From: Streptomyces toxytricini
Lineage (GTDB): Bacteria > Actinomycetota > Actinomycetes > Streptomycetales > Streptomycetaceae
DNA: 64,000 bases
Assembly (NCBI RefSeq): GCF_014649915.1
Contig: NZ_BMTY01000005.1
Span: 62,001-126,000 of the forward strand
Direction: 5' to 3'
Shown: one piece after another, positions 18,121 to 28,090 of the stretch
Position numbering within the stretch: position 1 is the stretch's first letter
Layout of the letters: every line of letters begins with the position of its first letter
The notes under the pieces: model-generated
Seen by the model: only the letters and a program-made list of their open reading frames with translations
Told to the model about the DNA's origin: nothing
Databases searched by the model: none
Program-made: the position numbers and the translations under genes

Positions 18121-20748
18121 TCAGGAAGGGTCGCCGTACTGGAGGCCGCGGCCGTTGGTGCCGACGTACACGCGGCCGAAGGCGTCGGGGTCGCCGGTGA
18201 TGACGCCGGTGCCGCCGATGCCGCCCCACTGGTGGGCGTCGTCGTTGACGCGCAGCCAGGTGGCGCCCTTGTCGGTGGAGCGGAAGACGCCGGTGGTGTC
18301 CTTGACGGTGCCGATCAGGTACAGGGCCTGGTAGGAGGCGCCCGGTGCGGCCTTGCCGAAGCCGATGGCGGAGGCCGACTTCACCGGGGCGACCCGGGTG
18401 AAGGTGCGGCCGCCGTCGGTGGAGTGGAGCAGGCCGTGGGAGCCGCCGGCGATCCACAGGTCGCCTGCGGCTCCGGGGAGCGCCTTGAGCCGGCCGCCGG
18501 CCGGCAGGTCGGCCGCGCGGGCGGTGAAGGTCGCTCCGCCGTCGGTGCTGGCGTACAGCGTGCCGCCGGCGAGGGAGTAGAACGTCCCGGCCGAGGAGCG
18601 GTCGGCGACGACGGCGGCATCCGTGCCCAGGCCGCTGACCTTCGACCAGCTCGCTCCCCTGTCGGTCGAGCGGTACGGGGCCTGGCCGGCCTGTGTCCAG
18701 ACGATGGCCGAGCCGTCGGCGGAGAGCGCCACCCGGCCGCTGTCGGCGCCGGCAACCGGTTCGGAGGCGAAGCCGTTCCAGCTGCGGCCGCCGTCGGTGG
18801 AGTAGGCGCCGTCCTGCGCGCCGCCCCGGCCGACGCGGACCATCATCGAGGGGTTGGACTGGGCGAAGTCGATGGATGTGCTGTTCGTCATCATCGGGTT
18901 CTTCAGCCGCCCGGCGGGCACCTCGGTCAGGGAGTCGTGGCGGAACCCGCCCAGGTCTCCCATGGCGGTGATGACGTGGGCGCCGCCGGGCGGGGCGATC
19001 GCGTCCAGCAGGGCGGTCTCCTCCAGTCCGCGGGCGCCCACGCTCCAGTGGCTGGTGCCGCCGCTGTCGGTGGCGTGGGCGTCCTTGCTGCGCAGGATGC
19101 CGCTGCCGGTGCCGTACAGGACGTGCCCGGAGTCGAAGGGATCGATGGCCAGGGCGGTCATCCAGTGCCCGGTGCCGGTGCCCACGTACGGGGCGGCGGA
19201 GGCGTCCCGTACCGACTTGTCGGCCAGGGCCTTCCAGGTCGTGCCGCCGTCGGTGGTCCGGTAGACCTCGTCCTCCGGCCACCAGCGGCCGAGGGTGGTG
19301 ACCATCACCGTGGAGGGCTTGCGCGGGTCGACGGCCAGACCGGAGAACCCGTAGTCGCCCTGGGAGGGGGAAACGTTCCGCCACGTGCCGCCGGCCGGCG
19401 TGTGCTTCCACACCGAGCCGCCCGTCACGCCGTTGGGGCCGAGGGCGTTGGTGTACGTCAGGTACAGCGAGCCGTCGCCGGAGAGCACGCCGTGCTGGGG
19501 CAGCTGTCCGGTGGGCTGCCCGGGGACGGCCTGCCAGGTGCTGCCGCCGTCGGTGGAGCGGTAGAGGGAGGTGGTCCTGTCGGCGACGCCGACGTACACC
19601 GTCTTGCTGCCGGCCGGGCCGTACGTCACGAAGGAGATGCCCGCGCCGCTGCCCGCCCCGTCCTTGACGGGGAACGAGGGGACCTGGCTCCAGGTCGCCC
19701 CGTGGTCGGTGCTGCGCCACAGGCCGTTCTTGCGCGTGCCCAGCAGGAGGGTGCCGTTGGCCGCGGGGTCGACCGCCAGCCGTTCGCCCGCCCCGCGGCC
19801 GTCCTCGTTGCCGCCCAGTTTGAAGGGCAGGTCGGTGCGCTGGAAGGTGCGGCCGCGGTCCCTGGAGCGGAGGATTGCGCCGTTGCCCGCCCAGTTGTTG
19901 GTGTAGGTGCCGGTGGCCAGGTAGAGCCTGCCGGGGTCGACGGGGTCGGTGGCCAGGGCGTCGATGCCCAGCAGGTTCCAGTCCTTCTCGCCGATCCAGT
20001 CGGTCAGCGGGATCCACTGTTCGGCCGCGGTGTCCCAGCGGTAGGCGCCGCCCATGTCGGTGCGCGCGTACAGCAGGCCCTTCTCCTTGGGGTTGAACAC
20101 CAGTCCGGTGACGTAGCCGCCGCCGACCACCTGGGCGTTCCGCCACCGGTACGGTCCGGATCCGGGCGCCTTGGGCCCGGCCGTCCTGACCAGCTTCCAC
20201 TGCTGGTTGGTACCGCCGTGGCCGCGGTACTGGATGACTGCCGCGCCGTCGGCCGTGGACCCGCCGGAGACGTCCAGGACCTGGCCGCTCCTGCGGGAGG
20301 TGAGGACGACGGCGTCCGACCCGCTCACGGGGTCGATCCGCCATTCCTGCGAGGCGGAGGAGCTGTCGGTCTGCTGCTCGGCGGCGGCCGCCTGGGCGGT
20401 CGAGTCGCCGGTGATGCCCAGCACCTTGCCGCTGTTGCGGTTGACCAGCTCGTGGTAGCCGTCCCCGGTGGGGCGCAGCTGCCACTGCTGGTTGGCGGTG
20501 TTCTGGTCCGTCCACTGCTGGATGCGGGTGCCGTCGGCGGTGGAGAAGGCGTTGACGTCCAGCGCTTTGCCGCTGCGTACGGAGACCAGCCGGTAGGAGG
20601 CGCTGCCGTCGACGGTCGCGGCCTGCGAGTCGTCCTGTACGTACAGGAGGTAGGGCACGAGGACGGCGGGAACACCGAGCAGCAGGCCGGTCCCGGTCCA
20701 GCGGCGGCGGTGGCGTCCGCGGCGCCCGCCGTGCGGGGGGTTCTTCAT
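18121..20748 (-). CDS. Secreted GH74 xyloglucanase-like enzyme with ricin-type domain
   Basis: 875 residues from ATG 20748 (AAGGAG 11 bases upstream). A charged N-terminus and a hydrophobic helix (about residues 20-37) form a signal peptide. Residues about 45-175 are a ricin B-type beta-trefoil (repeated NQQW, SQEW and QVLDVSGGSTADGA). From about residue 185 the GH74 twin propeller follows, beginning WRNAQVVGGGYVTGLVFNP and containing many BNR/Asp-box-like turns (STDGGSTW, STDHGATW, STDRGASW). GH74 enzymes cut the beta-1,4-glucan backbone of xyloglucan outside the cell. The gene follows the xylanase gene by 41 bases in the same direction and is probably co-transcribed. Ricin domains are normally C-terminal in such enzymes; here it is N-terminal. 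Confidence 0.85.
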   Translation of the reverse strand: MKNPPHGGRRGRHRRRWTGTGLLLGVPAVLVPYLLYVQDDSQAATVDGSASYRLVSVRSGKALDVNAFSTADGTRIQQWTDQNTANQQWQLRPTGDGYHELVNRNSGKVLGITGDSTAQAAAAEQQTDSSSASQEWRIDPVSGSDAVVLTSRRSGQVLDVSGGSTADGAAVIQYRGHGGTNQQWKLVRTAGPKAPGSGPYRWRNAQVVGGGYVTGLVFNPKEKGLLYARTDMGGAYRWDTAAEQWIPLTDWIGEKDWNLLGIDALATDPVDPGRLYLATGTYTNNWAGNGAILRSRDRGRTFQRTDLPFKLGGNEDGRGAGERLAVDPAANGTLLLGTRKNGLWRSTDHGATWSQVPSFPVKDGAGSGAGISFVTYGPAGSKTVYVGVADRTTSLYRSTDGGSTWQAVPGQPTGQLPQHGVLSGDGSLYLTYTNALGPNGVTGGSVWKHTPAGGTWRNVSPSQGDYGFSGLAVDPRKPSTVMVTTLGRWWPEDEVYRTTDGGTTWKALADKSVRDASAAPYVGTGTGHWMTALAIDPFDSGHVLYGTGSGILRSKDAHATDSGGTSHWSVGARGLEETALLDAIAPPGGAHVITAMGDLGGFRHDSLTEVPAGRLKNPMMTNSTSIDFAQSNPSMMVRVGRGGAQDGAYSTDGGRSWNGFASEPVAGADSGRVALSADGSAIVWTQAGQAPYRSTDRGASWSKVSGLGTDAAVVADRSSAGTFYSLAGGTLYASTDGGATFTARAADLPAGGRLKALPGAAGDLWIAGGSHGLLHSTDGGRTFTRVAPVKSASAIGFGKAAPGASYQALYLIGTVKDTTGVFRSTDKGATWLRVNDDAHQWGGIGGTGVITGDPDAFGRVYVGTNGRGLQYGDPS

Positions 20749-20789: not shown

Positions 20790-23245
<2,456 letters not shown>

Positions 23246-23585
23246 GGTGCGCTTTCTTCCGGGGATGTGCCGATGGGTGGGGGGCCTCCGGCGCCGGCTC
23301 GCATGGTGAGCGGCGGGAAGAACCCCACGAAGTGGAGGCTTGCGAACGCGTGGCCGCGTAACGGAAAAGCCGCGTCACCCCGGTGATCGCCCCGTGATCC
23401 ATCTCGCAGGAGAAAAGTGTTACGCCGAGCCCCGCGGTCCGGTCGTGCGTCGACGCGGGCCGGTCGGCCCGGAGGGGGAGTGCGCAGTGCCGGAGCCGGG
23501 GGCGGGCCCGCCGGCCGTCGCTGCGCGGCACCGTCCGCGGTGGTCGGCGGGCGGTGCCCGGCGATCGGTGGTCAGCGAACGGTGG
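23246..23585. other. Gene-free leader region of the xylanase operon
   Basis: About 340 bases between the ECF gene end and the small ORF. It should contain the promoter for the leftward glycosidase operon. No known xylan-operator palindrome was seen. The stretch read leftwards, GTAACACTTTTCTCC (around 23410), stands out as less GC-rich, but I cannot assign it. Confidence 0.35.
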
Positions 23586-25151
23586 TCAGGGCCGGGCCTT
23601 GCGGACGACGAAGGAGGCCTGGCCGGCGAAGGCCCGGGTGCCGTCGGAGCCGTCGAGCCAGATGCCGCCGTCGCGGTGGCGGACGACCGATCCCGGGTAG
23701 TTGTGGGAGTACAGGGTCACCGACCCCGCGACCGCTCCGGGGCGGGGGCAGAAGGTCGCGTCCTTCCGGAAGAGTTCGCTGCCGTCGTCGGTGCTCAGCC
23801 GCAGCCGCAGGTAGTGGTGCCGCAGGTAACGGCCGTCGGCCGCGCGGAAGGTGACGCACCGCCCGTCGGCCAGCCCCCGGACCACCGTGAACGTGACGCG
23901 CTGCCGTGCCTGCGTGCTGCCGGAGTCGGCGGCCCGGCCGAGCGTCGCGAAGTCGCCGGCGTACGTCAGGTAGAGGTCGGGCTGGTCGACGGACTCCAGT
24001 GTGTGCGCGCCCAGCGGAACCGTGCCCGCGGGGACGGCGGACGGACTCGCCGGTGGCGGTGCGGCCGGCGTGGGGGTGCCCGACGGGACCGGCGCGGGAG
24101 CGGCGGCCGTGGGCGCGACGGTGGGGGCGGCGGTGACGCCGGGCGCCCGGGGCGTCGGCTCCGGCCAGGCTGCGTACGTCGCGGCTCCGGTGATGAGCAC
24201 CGCACCGGCGGCGATGCTTGCCAGCGGGTGAGCGGTCACCGCGTGGAGTTTGCCGGTCGCCGCGCCGTGCAGACCGCCTGCCTTCACCGCCGCGCCGGCC
24301 GCGACCGGCGCCATGGCAGGCGCGGCGGCGCCCGCGGCCGAACCCGACAGCAGGCCCTTGGCGGTCAGCGTGGCGAGGAGTCCGGCGGGGACGGCCAGCG
24401 GCGCGAGGCCGAGCAGCAGCTGCTCGGCAGGGACCCGGTTCGCCGTCGTCGCCGTGCAGACCGGGCAGTCGCGGGTGTGCCGCGCGATCCGCTTCCGCCA
24501 CACCGAGGTACGCAGGCCGTCCCAGCCGGCGACGGTCTCGCCCAGCTGCGGGCATCGCGGGTGGGCCTCCAGGGCGGCGACGATCGTCCGGCTCAGGTCC
24601 AGCTGCTCGCGCATGCGCTGCAGGCGCACTCCGGCGTGGGCGGCGGTGAGGCCCGTCGCGGCCGCGATGTCCTCCCGGGTCAGCAGCCCGGCGTGCTCCT
24701 GCCACCAGAGGGACAGCAGGGCGCGGTGGTCCGGGTCGAGCCACCGGCCGGCTTCGGCGATCCGACGGCGCTCGTCCGACACACGGAGGCGCAGGATCGT
24801 CGCGTCCTCGGGTTCGAAGCCGGCATCCGGCAGGTCGAGCGCCTCGTCGATGACGGCGGTCCGGTTGGCGACCGCGCGCTGCCGCTGCCAGTGGGTCTGT
24901 ATCTGGCGGAGCGTGATCGACACCAGCCAGGAGCGGAAGCTGTCGGGAGCGCGCAGGGCAGGAAGGTCGCGCACCACGCGCAACAGCGTCTCCTGGACGA
25001 CGTCGTCGACGTCGGCATGTGCGCTCAGCGCCCGCCGGACGATGTTGTAGACCAGCGGCAGGTAGGCGGCGATCAGCTCTTCGCGCGCCCGGTCGTCCCC
25101 GGCCTGAGCCGCGACGACCAGGCCCGCGTGGTCCGCGTCCATGAGCCCCAT
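23586..25151 (-). CDS. ECF sigma factor fused to membrane helix and AbfB carbohydrate-binding domain
   Basis: 521 residues; ATG 25151 chosen for GGAAGG 6 bases upstream. Residues about 15-95 are sigma region 2 (DVDDVVQETLLRVVRDLPAL, SFRSWLVSITLRQIQ). Residues about 130-190 are region 4 (LLTREDIAAATGLTAAHAGV). H225, C229 and C232 (HTRDCPVC) form an anti-sigma-like zinc motif. A hydrophobic helix at about 308-330 is followed by an Ala/Pro linker and, from about 380, an AbfB/CBM42-type beta-trefoil (LESVDQPDLYLTYAG, GRYLRHHYLRLRL). The layout puts the sugar-binding domain outside and sigma inside, so it may be a sensor released by proteolysis. Sigma factors with such extensions are known (ECF53-like, from memory). 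The adjacent arabinoxylan enzymes suggest the target genes. Confidence 0.85.
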   Translation of the reverse strand: MGLMDADHAGLVVAAQAGDDRAREELIAAYLPLVYNIVRRALSAHADVDDVVQETLLRVVRDLPALRAPDSFRSWLVSITLRQIQTHWQRQRAVANRTAVIDEALDLPDAGFEPEDATILRLRVSDERRRIAEAGRWLDPDHRALLSLWWQEHAGLLTREDIAAATGLTAAHAGVRLQRMREQLDLSRTIVAALEAHPRCPQLGETVAGWDGLRTSVWRKRIARHTRDCPVCTATTANRVPAEQLLLGLAPLAVPAGLLATLTAKGLLSGSAAGAAAPAMAPVAAGAAVKAGGLHGAATGKLHAVTAHPLASIAAGAVLITGAATYAAWPEPTPRAPGVTAAPTVAPTAAAPAPVPSGTPTPAAPPPASPSAVPAGTVPLGAHTLESVDQPDLYLTYAGDFATLGRAADSGSTQARQRVTFTVVRGLADGRCVTFRAADGRYLRHHYLRLRLSTDDGSELFRKDATFCPRPGAVAGSVTLYSHNYPGSVVRHRDGGIWLDGSDGTRAFAGQASFVVRKARP

Positions 25152-25379
25152 TCCCACCCTTCCGGTTGACGGCGTCAGACCCTAGCGTCCGCAAAGGTGT
25201 GCGACCAAAGCGCGTGCTTAGGGTCGTGGACCAGGGCCCTTGGCCGCCTTCGGGGCCGGTGTGGCATTCGCCCGCGGGACGGGAGCGCTCGGGGCGAGGC
25301 GGGGGACCGGCCGGCGGGTTCCCCGCCGCCGGGCCGGCGCGGCCGTGGGGCGGGCCCGGACCGCGCCGGCGGGGAGGGG

Positions 25380-26027
25380 TCAGCCGCCGACGGGCCGGAA
25401 GATGCCGCCGGGGATGGTCACCGGGCGGTCGATCCGCTTGAAGCGGTACTCCATGGCCACGTCGTCGATCAGGAACGGCATGCGGTTCGCGGCGTCCTCG
25501 ATCACCGTGAAGCTGATGTTCACCTTCTGCGGGGCGGACCGGTAGAAGGCGTCGGGGAGGGTGACCGTCACCTGCTCGTAGGAGCCGTTGGTCCCGCCCT
25601 TGTTCATGCGGTCGTGCAGCTCGTAGGGCGTTCCGTCCTCCGCGGTGGCCTCCACGACCAGCTGGCGGAAGCCGAAGCCGCTCGCCCCGCTGTGGACCAC
25701 GTCGCTGCGCACCCAGAACGACAGGACCGGTACCCGGGACGCCGGTACGGTGACCTGCTGCGAGATGCGGCTCATGCCGGTCAGGCCCTGGCCGCCCAGC
25801 TCGGCCTTGCCGGTGCCCGTGCGTGCCGGCCACGCCGAGGAGTTGTTGACGGGATGCCCGGCGAACGGGGTCACCTTCTCGTGCCAGGACGCGTTGCCGC
25901 TCTCGAAGCCCGGGTTCGCCACATCGGACGGGCCCGCGCTCGCGTTCGGTGCGGCCATGAACATGCCCGTGGCCGCGACGGCGGTGGCGGCGGCAAGCAT
26001 GCTCGCTCTCCGCGCTCTCTTTCTCAT
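25380..26027 (-). CDS. Secreted protein with CBM-like beta-sandwich
   Basis: 215 residues from ATG 26027 (CAGGAG 6 bases upstream). Signal peptide MRKRARRASMLAAATAVAA with cleavage near ANASAGP. The mature part starts NPGFESGNASWHE and shows GKAELGGQGLTG and VSFWVRSD-like strands, the pattern of galactose-binding-like/CBM domains that often form C-terminal modules of secreted enzymes. Here the domain stands alone. There is no catalytic motif. It reads towards the ECF-AbfB gene and could be a small polysaccharide-binding protein of the same locus. Confidence 0.65.
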   Translation of the reverse strand: MRKRARRASMLAAATAVAATGMFMAAPNASAGPSDVANPGFESGNASWHEKVTPFAGHPVNNSSAWPARTGTGKAELGGQGLTGMSRISQQVTVPASRVPVLSFWVRSDVVHSGASGFGFRQLVVEATAEDGTPYELHDRMNKGGTNGSYEQVTVTLPDAFYRSAPQKVNISFTVIEDAANRMPFLIDDVAMEYRFKRIDRPVTIPGGIFRPVGG

Positions 26028-26368
26028 GGGTCTCCTGGCTGTTTCTCGGTTTCGAACGGGGACGTGCCGCAACAGCCGGGCGGCCGGCCCCTCCCCCGCC
26101 CCCGGCGGAATGCCGGGGGTCTGCGGTGGGCCCTGCCCGAGGAGCACGGTGGTCAGCCGTCTCGACCGCGGCGCACACTGTAGCGCGCCGGTATGACAAC
26201 CACTCAGCCCCGGAGGGCGCCACGGCGGACGGACGGTTTCGAGCCGCGGCGCGGCCGACGGCGCGTGCACGTACGGCGACGTACGCCTTCGCACCGTGAC
26301 GAGTGAACCCGTGTGCGGGGGGCAGGTGCCGGTGGTCCGGGCCGTCGCCGCGGCGGAGGGAGATGACC
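26028..26368. other. Divergent intergenic region
   Basis: About 340 bases separating the leftward secreted protein from the rightward phosphatase gene, so it must hold both promoters. No frame looks coding. Near 26180-26190 a less GC-rich stretch (gtagcgcgccggtatgacaacc) may include promoter elements, but no confident -35/-10 pair was found. Confidence 0.35.
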
Positions 26369-28090
26369 ATGAGTCCGGCCGTTCCCCGGGATCCCGAGGC
26401 CCTCAAGCAGCTCATCACCCGCGAGGTGGCCCTGCTGCGCGCAGCCGCCGGCCGTTCGGCGGGGGTGCGGCCGAGCCCCGCCACCCCGGCCGAGATCGCG
26501 GAGTCCGAAGCGCTGTCCGCCTGCTCCTGCGGGGCCGTCTCCCGCCACGGCCACTCGTGCGCGGAGGGCGGCGGGGACCACGACCCGTGGGCCTGCGTCT
26601 GCGCGGCCCTCCCCGCCATTCCGGCCTCCGCGGCGCTGCTGGCGCCCGTCGCGGACGGCGACGGGAAGACCGAGGACTTCGTCATCCGGGCCGGGAACCA
26701 CATCCGGTCCGTCGAATGGCTCGACTCCCCCGACCGGCAGGTCGGCAAGCGGCTCCGGGAGGTGCGGCCCGGGGTGGACGGCAGCGGGCTCCTGGACTCC
26801 CTCAAGGAGGTCCTGCACACCGGCCGCGCGCTGCGGAACTTCCCGGTGGACTACACCGAGCGGCGGCCTGACGGCCTGCACCGCACCAAGCTCCTGTACG
26901 ACGCCGCGTCCTGCTCCGGACAGGTGCTCGCCACCTGGCGCCCGGCCCACAACCCGGCCGAGCTGATGTCGCTGGAGGCCCAGTACATCGCCTCCATGGG
27001 GTGGGCCCACTTCGACCTCCTTTCCGGCGAGACCACCTGGTCCGAGGGGCTCGGCACGATCTTCAGGACCGCTCCGGGCCGGCCCATGGGCCTGCTGGAC
27101 CTGTGCGACGCGGTGCTGCTGGAGGACGTGCCGCGCTGGGCGCGGCTGCTGCGCGCGCTGTTCGACGGGGAGGAGCCCCCGGGCTCCGACATCCGGTTCA
27201 CCGTGTACGGCGATGTCCGGACGCTCCACGTCATCGGCCGGCCGGTCATCTCGACGGACGGCCTGGCGTGGGCCCTGCACCTCATCGCACGCGACCTCAC
27301 GCCCGTCATCCGCAGCAGGCAGCGGCTCGCGGCCACCCGTCGGCAGACCGAGTGGTTCCGCGAGGAGGCGGCGGCAGAACACCGGGTCGCGGCCGCGCTG
27401 CGCGAGGCGCTGCTCCCGACGCACTCCTCGGAGATCGCCCGGCTCGGGTACGCCGTGGCGGCCGCGTACCTGCCGGTCGAGGAGGACGCCGCGGTCGGCG
27501 GCGACTGGTACAAGTGCCGGGCGCTGCCCGACGGGCGCATCCTCCTGGCCATCGGGGACGCCTGCGGCCACGGGCTCGACGCGGTCGCGCGCATGGCGCA
27601 GCAGCGGCACGCCCTGGCGGGCCTGGCGCACACGCCGGGCAGTGACGCCGGGCAGCTGACCACCTGGCTCAACGAACTCGTGTGCGCGGACACCTCGGCG
27701 GAGACCGCCACCGCGGTCATCGGGCACCTCGGCGACGACCGCCGCCTGGTGTGGGCCTGCGCCGGGCACCCGCCGCCGCTCCTGCTGCACGACGGTACGG
27801 CCGCCGCGCTGGACACCCGGCACCGGGGGCCGCTCCTGGGGCTGCTCCCGGGCGAGGCGTACGCGACGGCCTCCCTGCCGCTGGAACCGGGCGACCTGCT
27901 GCTGCTCTACACCGACGGGCTGGTCGAGCGGCGCGGTGAGGACATCGAGGCCGGTGTGAACTCGCTGCTCGACCACCTCGCCGACTGCGCCGGGGGCGAC
28001 GCCCGCCAGACCCTCGACGCGGTGGTCGCCCGGTACGCCGAGGACCGGCTGGAGGACGACACCTGCCTGGTGGTGGTCGAAGCCCTCTGA
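26369..28090 (+). CDS. PAS-sensor SpoIIE-type PP2C phosphatase
   Basis: 573 residues; ATG 26369 chosen because GGAGGG lies 8 bases upstream (ATG 26363 is too close). The first 120 residues include a Cys/His-rich patch (SACSCGAVSRHGHSC, WACVC) that may bind metal or iron-sulfur. A PAS-like region follows (about 200-330; MGWAHFDLLSGETTWSEGLG). After a helical linker comes the SpoIIE/RsbU PP2C domain (about 360-573) with VGGDWYKC, AIGDACGHGLDA, AGHPPPLLL and YTDGLVERR supplying the metal-binding Asp residues. Such proteins dephosphorylate anti-anti-sigma factors in partner-switching. The input signal is unknown; the Cys cluster would fit redox or metal sensing. Confidence 0.85.
   Translation: MSPAVPRDPEALKQLITREVALLRAAAGRSAGVRPSPATPAEIAESEALSACSCGAVSRHGHSCAEGGGDHDPWACVCAALPAIPASAALLAPVADGDGKTEDFVIRAGNHIRSVEWLDSPDRQVGKRLREVRPGVDGSGLLDSLKEVLHTGRALRNFPVDYTERRPDGLHRTKLLYDAASCSGQVLATWRPAHNPAELMSLEAQYIASMGWAHFDLLSGETTWSEGLGTIFRTAPGRPMGLLDLCDAVLLEDVPRWARLLRALFDGEEPPGSDIRFTVYGDVRTLHVIGRPVISTDGLAWALHLIARDLTPVIRSRQRLAATRRQTEWFREEAAAEHRVAAALREALLPTHSSEIARLGYAVAAAYLPVEEDAAVGGDWYKCRALPDGRILLAIGDACGHGLDAVARMAQQRHALAGLAHTPGSDAGQLTTWLNELVCADTSAETATAVIGHLGDDRRLVWACAGHPPPLLLHDGTAAALDTRHRGPLLGLLPGEAYATASLPLEPGDLLLLYTDGLVERRGEDIEAGVNSLLDHLADCAGGDARQTLDAVVARYAEDRLEDDTCLVVVEAL

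Follow-up and report, generated by a model that had tools for sequence, protein, structure and literature searches.

Can a single protein sense a plant polysaccharide outside the cell and, from inside, switch on the enzymes that degrade it? This question is raised by a gene in a 64,000-nucleotide stretch of Streptomyces toxytricini DNA (hereafter the window; contig NZ_BMTY01000005.1, positions 62,001 to 126,000). An initial annotation proposed such a sensor for arabinoxylan, with ECF sigma regions, an anti-sigma-like zinc motif, a single membrane helix and an outside AbfB-type carbohydrate-binding domain in one chain, in which sugar binding outside frees the sigma part inside. Here, on the basis of a scan of genome contigs that gave 80 loci, 42 of them close orthologs (not independent of one another), together with profile searches, structure prediction and the literature, we judge from sequence comparison that this interpretation is more probably correct than not. 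The layout of the protein and the presence of the same arabinoxylan enzyme directly downstream in 41 of the 42 close relatives make it very probably a dedicated plant-fibre sensor.

Domain organization of the protein

The order of sigma factor, fused zinc anti-sigma (ZAS) domain, membrane anchor, linker and AbfB module in one chain is virtually certain (Table 1). Residues are numbered from the ATG, which the orthologs conserve; an alternative GTG start at 25157 gives an ORF of 523 residues (23586-25157, minus strand). Chance is excluded as the origin of the reading frame because the orthologs are 70-90% identical, with gene order kept. An antisense ORF of 609 residues on the plus strand (23340-25169) was rejected as a high-GC shadow, as coding-type codon-position GC and conserved orthologs belong to the minus strand.

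The claimed ECF sigma part is borne out by Pfam Sigma70_r2, by TIGR02937 sigma70-ECF (NCBIfam, E=3e-20), which spans sigma regions 2 to 4 (residues 24-186 of the GTG form), by AlphaFold and by a Foldseek search of the PDB, in which SigE-RseA (1or7) and AlgU-MucA, matching the N terminus, follow the CBM42 structures. The AlphaFold model, from a 42-row alignment, has a mean pLDDT of 71.9: sigma regions 2 and 4 and the zinc region are folded and confident, residues 265-375 fall below 50 with a helix at 309-327 within them, and residues 381-518 form a beta-trefoil.

All four residues of C200-x24-H225-x3-C229-x2-C232 are invariant in the alignment of 42 relatives, which is the spacing of the ligands in ZAS domains. 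The HxxxCxxC motif had been recognized at the outset, and C200, the fourth ligand, had been missed. As Pfam zf-HC2 gives no match in the window protein, the assignment rests on the motif, its position right after region 4 and its conservation.

The C-terminal module belongs to the CBM42 (AbfB) family, as first annotated: its Pfam match (E=1.2e-37) scores 129.5 bits against a gathering cut-off of 22.8, its fold is a beta-trefoil and CBM42 structures top the Foldseek list for the C terminus, with a TM-score to target of 0.79 for 3kmv, 9nxi and 9fnk. A profile search by sequence recovers the same families, including 9fnk, 'Anti-sigma-I factor RsgI5'. Residues R444, H445, D464, N484 and Y485 of the CBM42 repeats are invariant among the 42 aligned sequences. 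In AtAbf43C, the sugar is contacted by H70/D89 and N120/Y121/D136 (PMC12493170), and the spacings of H445/D464 and N484/Y485/D500 equal those of these contacts; the equivalents of AtAbf43C Y73 and H118, placed by spacing, are not conserved. We suggest that the module probably recognizes an arabinose-decorated polymer. In two orthologs (L047 and L048), the sigma and AbfB parts lie in different reading frames, through a frameshift or a sequencing error.

Table 1 Features of the putative sensor gene, its neighbours and two related proteins (window positions, or positions within a locus where one is named)
Feature	Position	Strand	Basis and remarks
Sigma-ZAS-TM-AbfB one-protein regulator	23586..25151	-	521 aa from conserved ATG
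Sigma-70 region 2	24876..25076	-	Residues 26-92; Pfam PF04542, E=1.1e-15
Sigma region 4 with HTH	24600..24740	-	About residues 138-184; TIGR02937 and AlphaFold helices 140-196; limits approximate
Fused ZAS domain	24432..24590	-	About residues 188-240; ligands C200, H225, C229, C232; limits by inspection
HxxxCxxC motif (HTRDCPVC)	24456..24479	-	H225, C229, C232
Hydrophobic segment 1	24363..24419	-	Residues 245-263, with P255 invariant; helix, probably cytoplasmic or peripheral; perhaps a second membrane pass
Proposed membrane-spanning helix	24168..24227	-	Residues 309-328; AlphaFold and hydrophobicity
Pro/Ala/Thr/Ser linker	24012..24167	-	Residues 329-380; composition
AbfB / CBM42 beta-trefoil	23604..23999	-	Residues 385-516; Pfam and Foldseek; invariant C432, C468
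Conserved intergenic block upstream of GH operon	23290..23430	-	Candidate control region
Leader ORF	23156..23245	-	29 aa; stop overlaps GH10-GH62 start codon as ATGA
Secreted GH10 xylanase - ricin-type lectin - GH62 arabinofuranosidase	20790..23159	-	
Secreted ricin-type lectin - GH74 xyloglucanase	18121..20748	-	41 nt downstream of GH10-GH62 stop
CAP-domain paralog	L003 424-2403	-	Contig C1 about 449449-450312, same genome
SCO4117-like sigma-zinc-membrane-NPCBM protein	L087 1495-3327	-	Same genome; by architecture; zf-HC2 present

Membrane topology

Two stretches of the window protein are hydrophobic, residues 245-263 and about 309-328. The proposed membrane helix is the second of these, the sequence of which varies among relatives while its hydrophobicity is kept; that it is the only helix, as first annotated, is uncertain, since the stretch at 245-263 is equally or more hydrophobic (mean Kyte-Doolittle across relatives of 2.17 versus 1.63). 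This first stretch is broken in the AlphaFold model, and P255 within it and P241 and L245 at its flanks are invariant in the 42 sequences. In the loop between the stretches, positive charges average 3.4 and negative ones 0.45, with positive exceeding negative in 40 of 42 sequences, and the Pro/Ser/Thr content after the second stretch averages 51% across relatives. Three of the five cysteines of the protein lie in the zinc motif and the other two, both invariant, in AbfB (C432 and C468), a pair that stands where the CBM42 of Aspergillus AbfB has a disulfide. The positive-inside charges and the invariant cysteine pair favour an outside AbfB, which we regard as highly likely; the best topology that we can infer places sigma and ZAS inside, with one crossing at 309-328.

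An arabinoxylan enzyme cassette beside the putative sensor

The GH10/GH62 arabinoxylanase and GH74 xyloglucanase that had been named as neighbours were both found, downstream of the sigma gene and on the same strand, and the closest solved structures to the GH74 protein are xyloglucanases (E=2.6e-193). In all but one of the 42 close orthologs, GH10 and GH62 directly follow the sigma gene on its own strand. GH74 is adjacent in 32 of them (28 downstream, 4 divergently upstream), the other 10 having no GH74 within the stretch. When all neighbouring genes were clustered, the next most frequent family was present at 4 loci only, and the remaining window genes gave only isolated weak family-level matches at the ortholog loci. 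Judged from this conservation, the sigma, GH10/62 and GH74 genes make up a cassette whose surroundings vary. The term operon fits GH10/62-GH74 only and not all three genes, because about 430 bp separate the sigma and GH genes (426 bp from sigma stop to GH10/62 start in the window). On the other side of the sigma gene, between it and a SpoIIE-type phosphatase gene (26303-28090, plus strand), a putative secreted protein is encoded (25380-26294, minus strand), a gene that is present in none of the ortholog loci.

The candidate intergenic control region

The conserved block upstream of the GH operon contains an inverted repeat, CRTAACRCTTTY followed at a constant distance of 45-47 nt by TTTTyyGTTACG (window 23357-23424, minus strand), which is found at 35 loci including the window and is a candidate regulator site. 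At L018, where the GH10/62 gene is deleted, the conserved upstream block is left and now precedes GH74. In the loci with a separate, divergent GH74 gene (L014, L021, L022 and L041), no block of the GH10 type was seen by eye before GH74. A pattern drawn from the block has a single match in the genome, also when 3 mismatches are allowed, and no wider regulon was seen.

Between the sigma and GH genes, neither a sigma-70-type promoter nor a clear terminator was found beyond chance. When the region upstream of the sigma gene was compared with that upstream of the GH operon, profile against profile and with shuffled columns as the control, the only common motif was the ribosome-binding site, so the comparison supports neither autoregulation nor a promoter class.

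Immediately before the GH10/62 gene lies a short ORF of variable length (12 to 54 codons), and the ATGA overlap of its stop with the enzyme start is present in 31 of the 34 loci where the leader was found (loci L007-L054). As the overlap is kept despite differing length, indels in the leader are in frame; the ORF is a probable translationally coupled leader peptide.

One chassis with different outside domains

The sigma-ZAS part was found in 19 of the 21 genomes searched, in one to seven copies each, joined to outside domains that include CAP, a GH128-like catalytic core, GH99-like, ricin lectin and DUF4185, with some unassigned. The window genome itself encodes a paralog that bears a CAP (PR-1-like) domain for AbfB and is 50% identical over 258 residues. 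Four sigma-ZAS proteins (L102, L107, L109 and L100) end in GH128-like or GH99-like catalytic-core domains and are possible enzyme-derived sensors; on four others (L096, L097, L108 and L110), a recurrent C-terminal domain with a HVASGGGRRMDD motif matched no Pfam family.

This variety provides a built-in control at the locus, that is, the same chassis with other sensors and no such enzymes. GH10, GH62 or GH74 lies within about 8 kb at 49 of 66 AbfB loci versus 0 of 24 non-AbfB loci (Fisher p=3e-11, with the relatedness of loci ignored). Among the diverged AbfB members, GH10 or GH62 is nearby in 7 of 24 (p=0.009); the count rises to 16 of 24, versus 1 of 24 non-AbfB loci, when AbfB-bearing enzymes and GH43-AbfB are included. 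At L057, the sigma gene is preceded on its own strand, at a distance of about 75 nt, by a GH62 gene; at L049, a ricin-GH62 gene follows the sigma gene; the L045 neighbourhood holds GH10, GH43, GH127, GH62 and a LacI regulator, and that of L061 holds GH43-AbfB and two AbfB proteins. The annotated link between sensor and enzymes is thus supported in part, by these neighbourhoods and those of the close orthologs and not by a shared promoter.

In a phylogeny built from the sigma-ZAS region, the distribution of AbfB requires at least two changes, and a constraint to one clade is rejected (p-AU 0.024). AbfB would have joined the chassis at least twice by independent gain, which is likely rather than certain given the long branches, and both AbfB lineages adjoin arabinose-active enzymes. 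A wider reading, for and against which we see the chances as evenly balanced, is that a single sigma-ZAS-membrane chassis serves Streptomyces and Micromonosporaceae as a plug-in platform with exchangeable outside domains (CBM42, CAP, ricin lectin, GH128-like, GH99-like or DUF4185). In this reading, the CBM42 form would have been recruited at least twice to act as a switch dedicated to arabinose-releasing enzymes, and the arabinoxylan form would travel with GH10/62 and GH74 and act on the conserved control block and the translationally coupled leader peptide.

Proposed mechanism and alternatives

We propose a one-protein, membrane-bound sigma switch for arabinoxylan, a model that we consider reasonably probable. 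As long as substrate is absent, the sigma part would stay inactive, restrained by the ZAS domain fused to it and by its tether to the membrane. Binding of the outside AbfB module to the arabinofuranose side chains of arabinoxylan, or to products released from it, would generate a signal that crosses the membrane, most likely by two-step cleavage near and in the membrane, and the freed sigma domain would steer RNA polymerase to the neighbouring GH10/62-GH74 operon and perhaps to few genes besides. Proteolysis is slightly favoured over conformational change as the means of release.

Co-localization of sigma and GH genes is not regulation, and the GH genes might instead travel alongside the sigma gene in one cassette and yet be ruled mainly by other regulators (a LacI/ROK-type repressor and catabolite control), with the sigma factor acting on other genes, such as those of the envelope or of development, as the pleiotropic SCO4117 is reported to do (PMC5826349). 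LacI-family genes do occur near distant relatives, and the inverted repeat before GH10/62 resembles the site of a dimeric transcription factor more than a sigma promoter; the sigma gene and the enzyme operon also yielded no common promoter motif. The link nevertheless tracks the sensor domain, as AbfB forms adjoin arabinose-active enzymes and other forms of the chassis do not; the block motif is as rare as expected of a local target, and the intergenic region offers no sigma-70-type promoter match. We consider control mainly by other regulators unlikely, and that the sigma factor controls the adjacent GH genes appears likely from these comparisons.

Two further alternatives concern the sensor itself. 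If both hydrophobic stretches crossed the membrane, AbfB would be cytoplasmic and would sense imported arabino-oligosaccharides, an arrangement to which the high hydropathy of residues 245-263 lends some weight. The invariant proline and flanks of that stretch look more like the packing helix of an anti-sigma domain, however, and its break in the AlphaFold model, the positive loop, the paired AbfB cysteines, a Pro/Ser/Thr-rich linker like those of exported proteins and reports on ECF48/52/53 that allow one to two helices (PMC8999054) make a cytoplasmic sensor very improbable. Hardly more credible is an AbfB module that is a relic or serves merely to hold the cell, or the sigma factor, on the plant polymer while the signal arrives otherwise, for example through envelope stress or phosphorylation: SCO4117 is phosphorylated (PMC5826349) and the CAP or glycosidase-like domains of other chassis members have no obvious sugar ligand, but the CBM42 motif residues are invariant and spaced like the sugar contacts of AtAbf43C (PMC12493170), and the module appears to have been gained at least twice beside arabinose-active enzymes. 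The membrane-bound switch with an outside arabinoxylan sensor is the model that we favour. It would offer a testable pair, a sensor whose family ligand (arabinofuranose) is known and an adjacent, conserved, single enzyme operon for exactly that polymer, and possibly a one-gene arabinoxylan-responsive expression switch.

Comparison with known systems

A search for ECF families with the same layout, suggested by the initial annotation, showed that ECF52 and ECF53 have already been described in these terms. An ECF52 protein contains, in one chain, a sigma part, a zinc finger, a membrane region, a Pro-rich stretch and a carbohydrate-binding domain; SCO4117 of Streptomyces coelicolor is the characterized example, for which proteolytic release has been proposed (PMC5826349; PMC8999054). 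SCO4117 shares this layout with the window protein, carrying NPCBM where the latter carries AbfB; what it governs is development and antibiotics, not a carbohydrate operon, and a truncated form keeps activity (PMC5826349). BLASTP of the window protein against L087, which stands in for SCO4117 by architecture, gave no significant alignment, and ECF52 membership was rejected on this ground; the same layout without detectable similarity suggests that it arose more than once. In ECF53, zinc and membrane anti-sigma parts are reported to be fused (PMC8999054; PMC10766802), and some ECF52 and ECF53 proteins are predicted, without experimental validation, to carry GH or carbohydrate-binding domains (PMC10766802). 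Relatives of the window protein have GH-like and carbohydrate-binding domains too, and by this analogy its assignment to ECF53 is plausible. The window protein has the features of the general ECF52/53-like kind: sigma regions 2 and 4, a fused ZAS motif, a carbohydrate-binding domain predicted to lie outside, and two hydrophobic stretches, one or both of them putative crossings, with a linker that is about half Pro, Ser and Thr.

In IutY of Pseudomonas putida (ECF243), sigma and membrane anti-sigma are likewise fused and the sigma part is freed by intramembrane proteolysis (PMC8999054), but the signal is a siderophore, received through a cell-surface signalling system, and the domains differ. 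By analogy of function, the closest counterpart is RsgI5 of Clostridium thermocellum, a membrane anti-sigma factor that senses polysaccharide and acts through a proteolytic cascade, with an extracellular sensor of the same CBM42 family (PDB 9fnk; PMC4711584, PMC12203970). SigI5/RsgI5 differs in being two separate proteins, with a SigI-type sigma factor, a periplasmic self-cleaving domain and no ZAS. Our literature search for a sigma factor with AbfB found no description of an AbfB form of an ECF sigma factor with an arabinoxylan cassette. The general design is already known; what is new, as far as the literature searched shows, is a form for arabinoxylan, together with the conserved enzyme cassette and the natural control that go with it.
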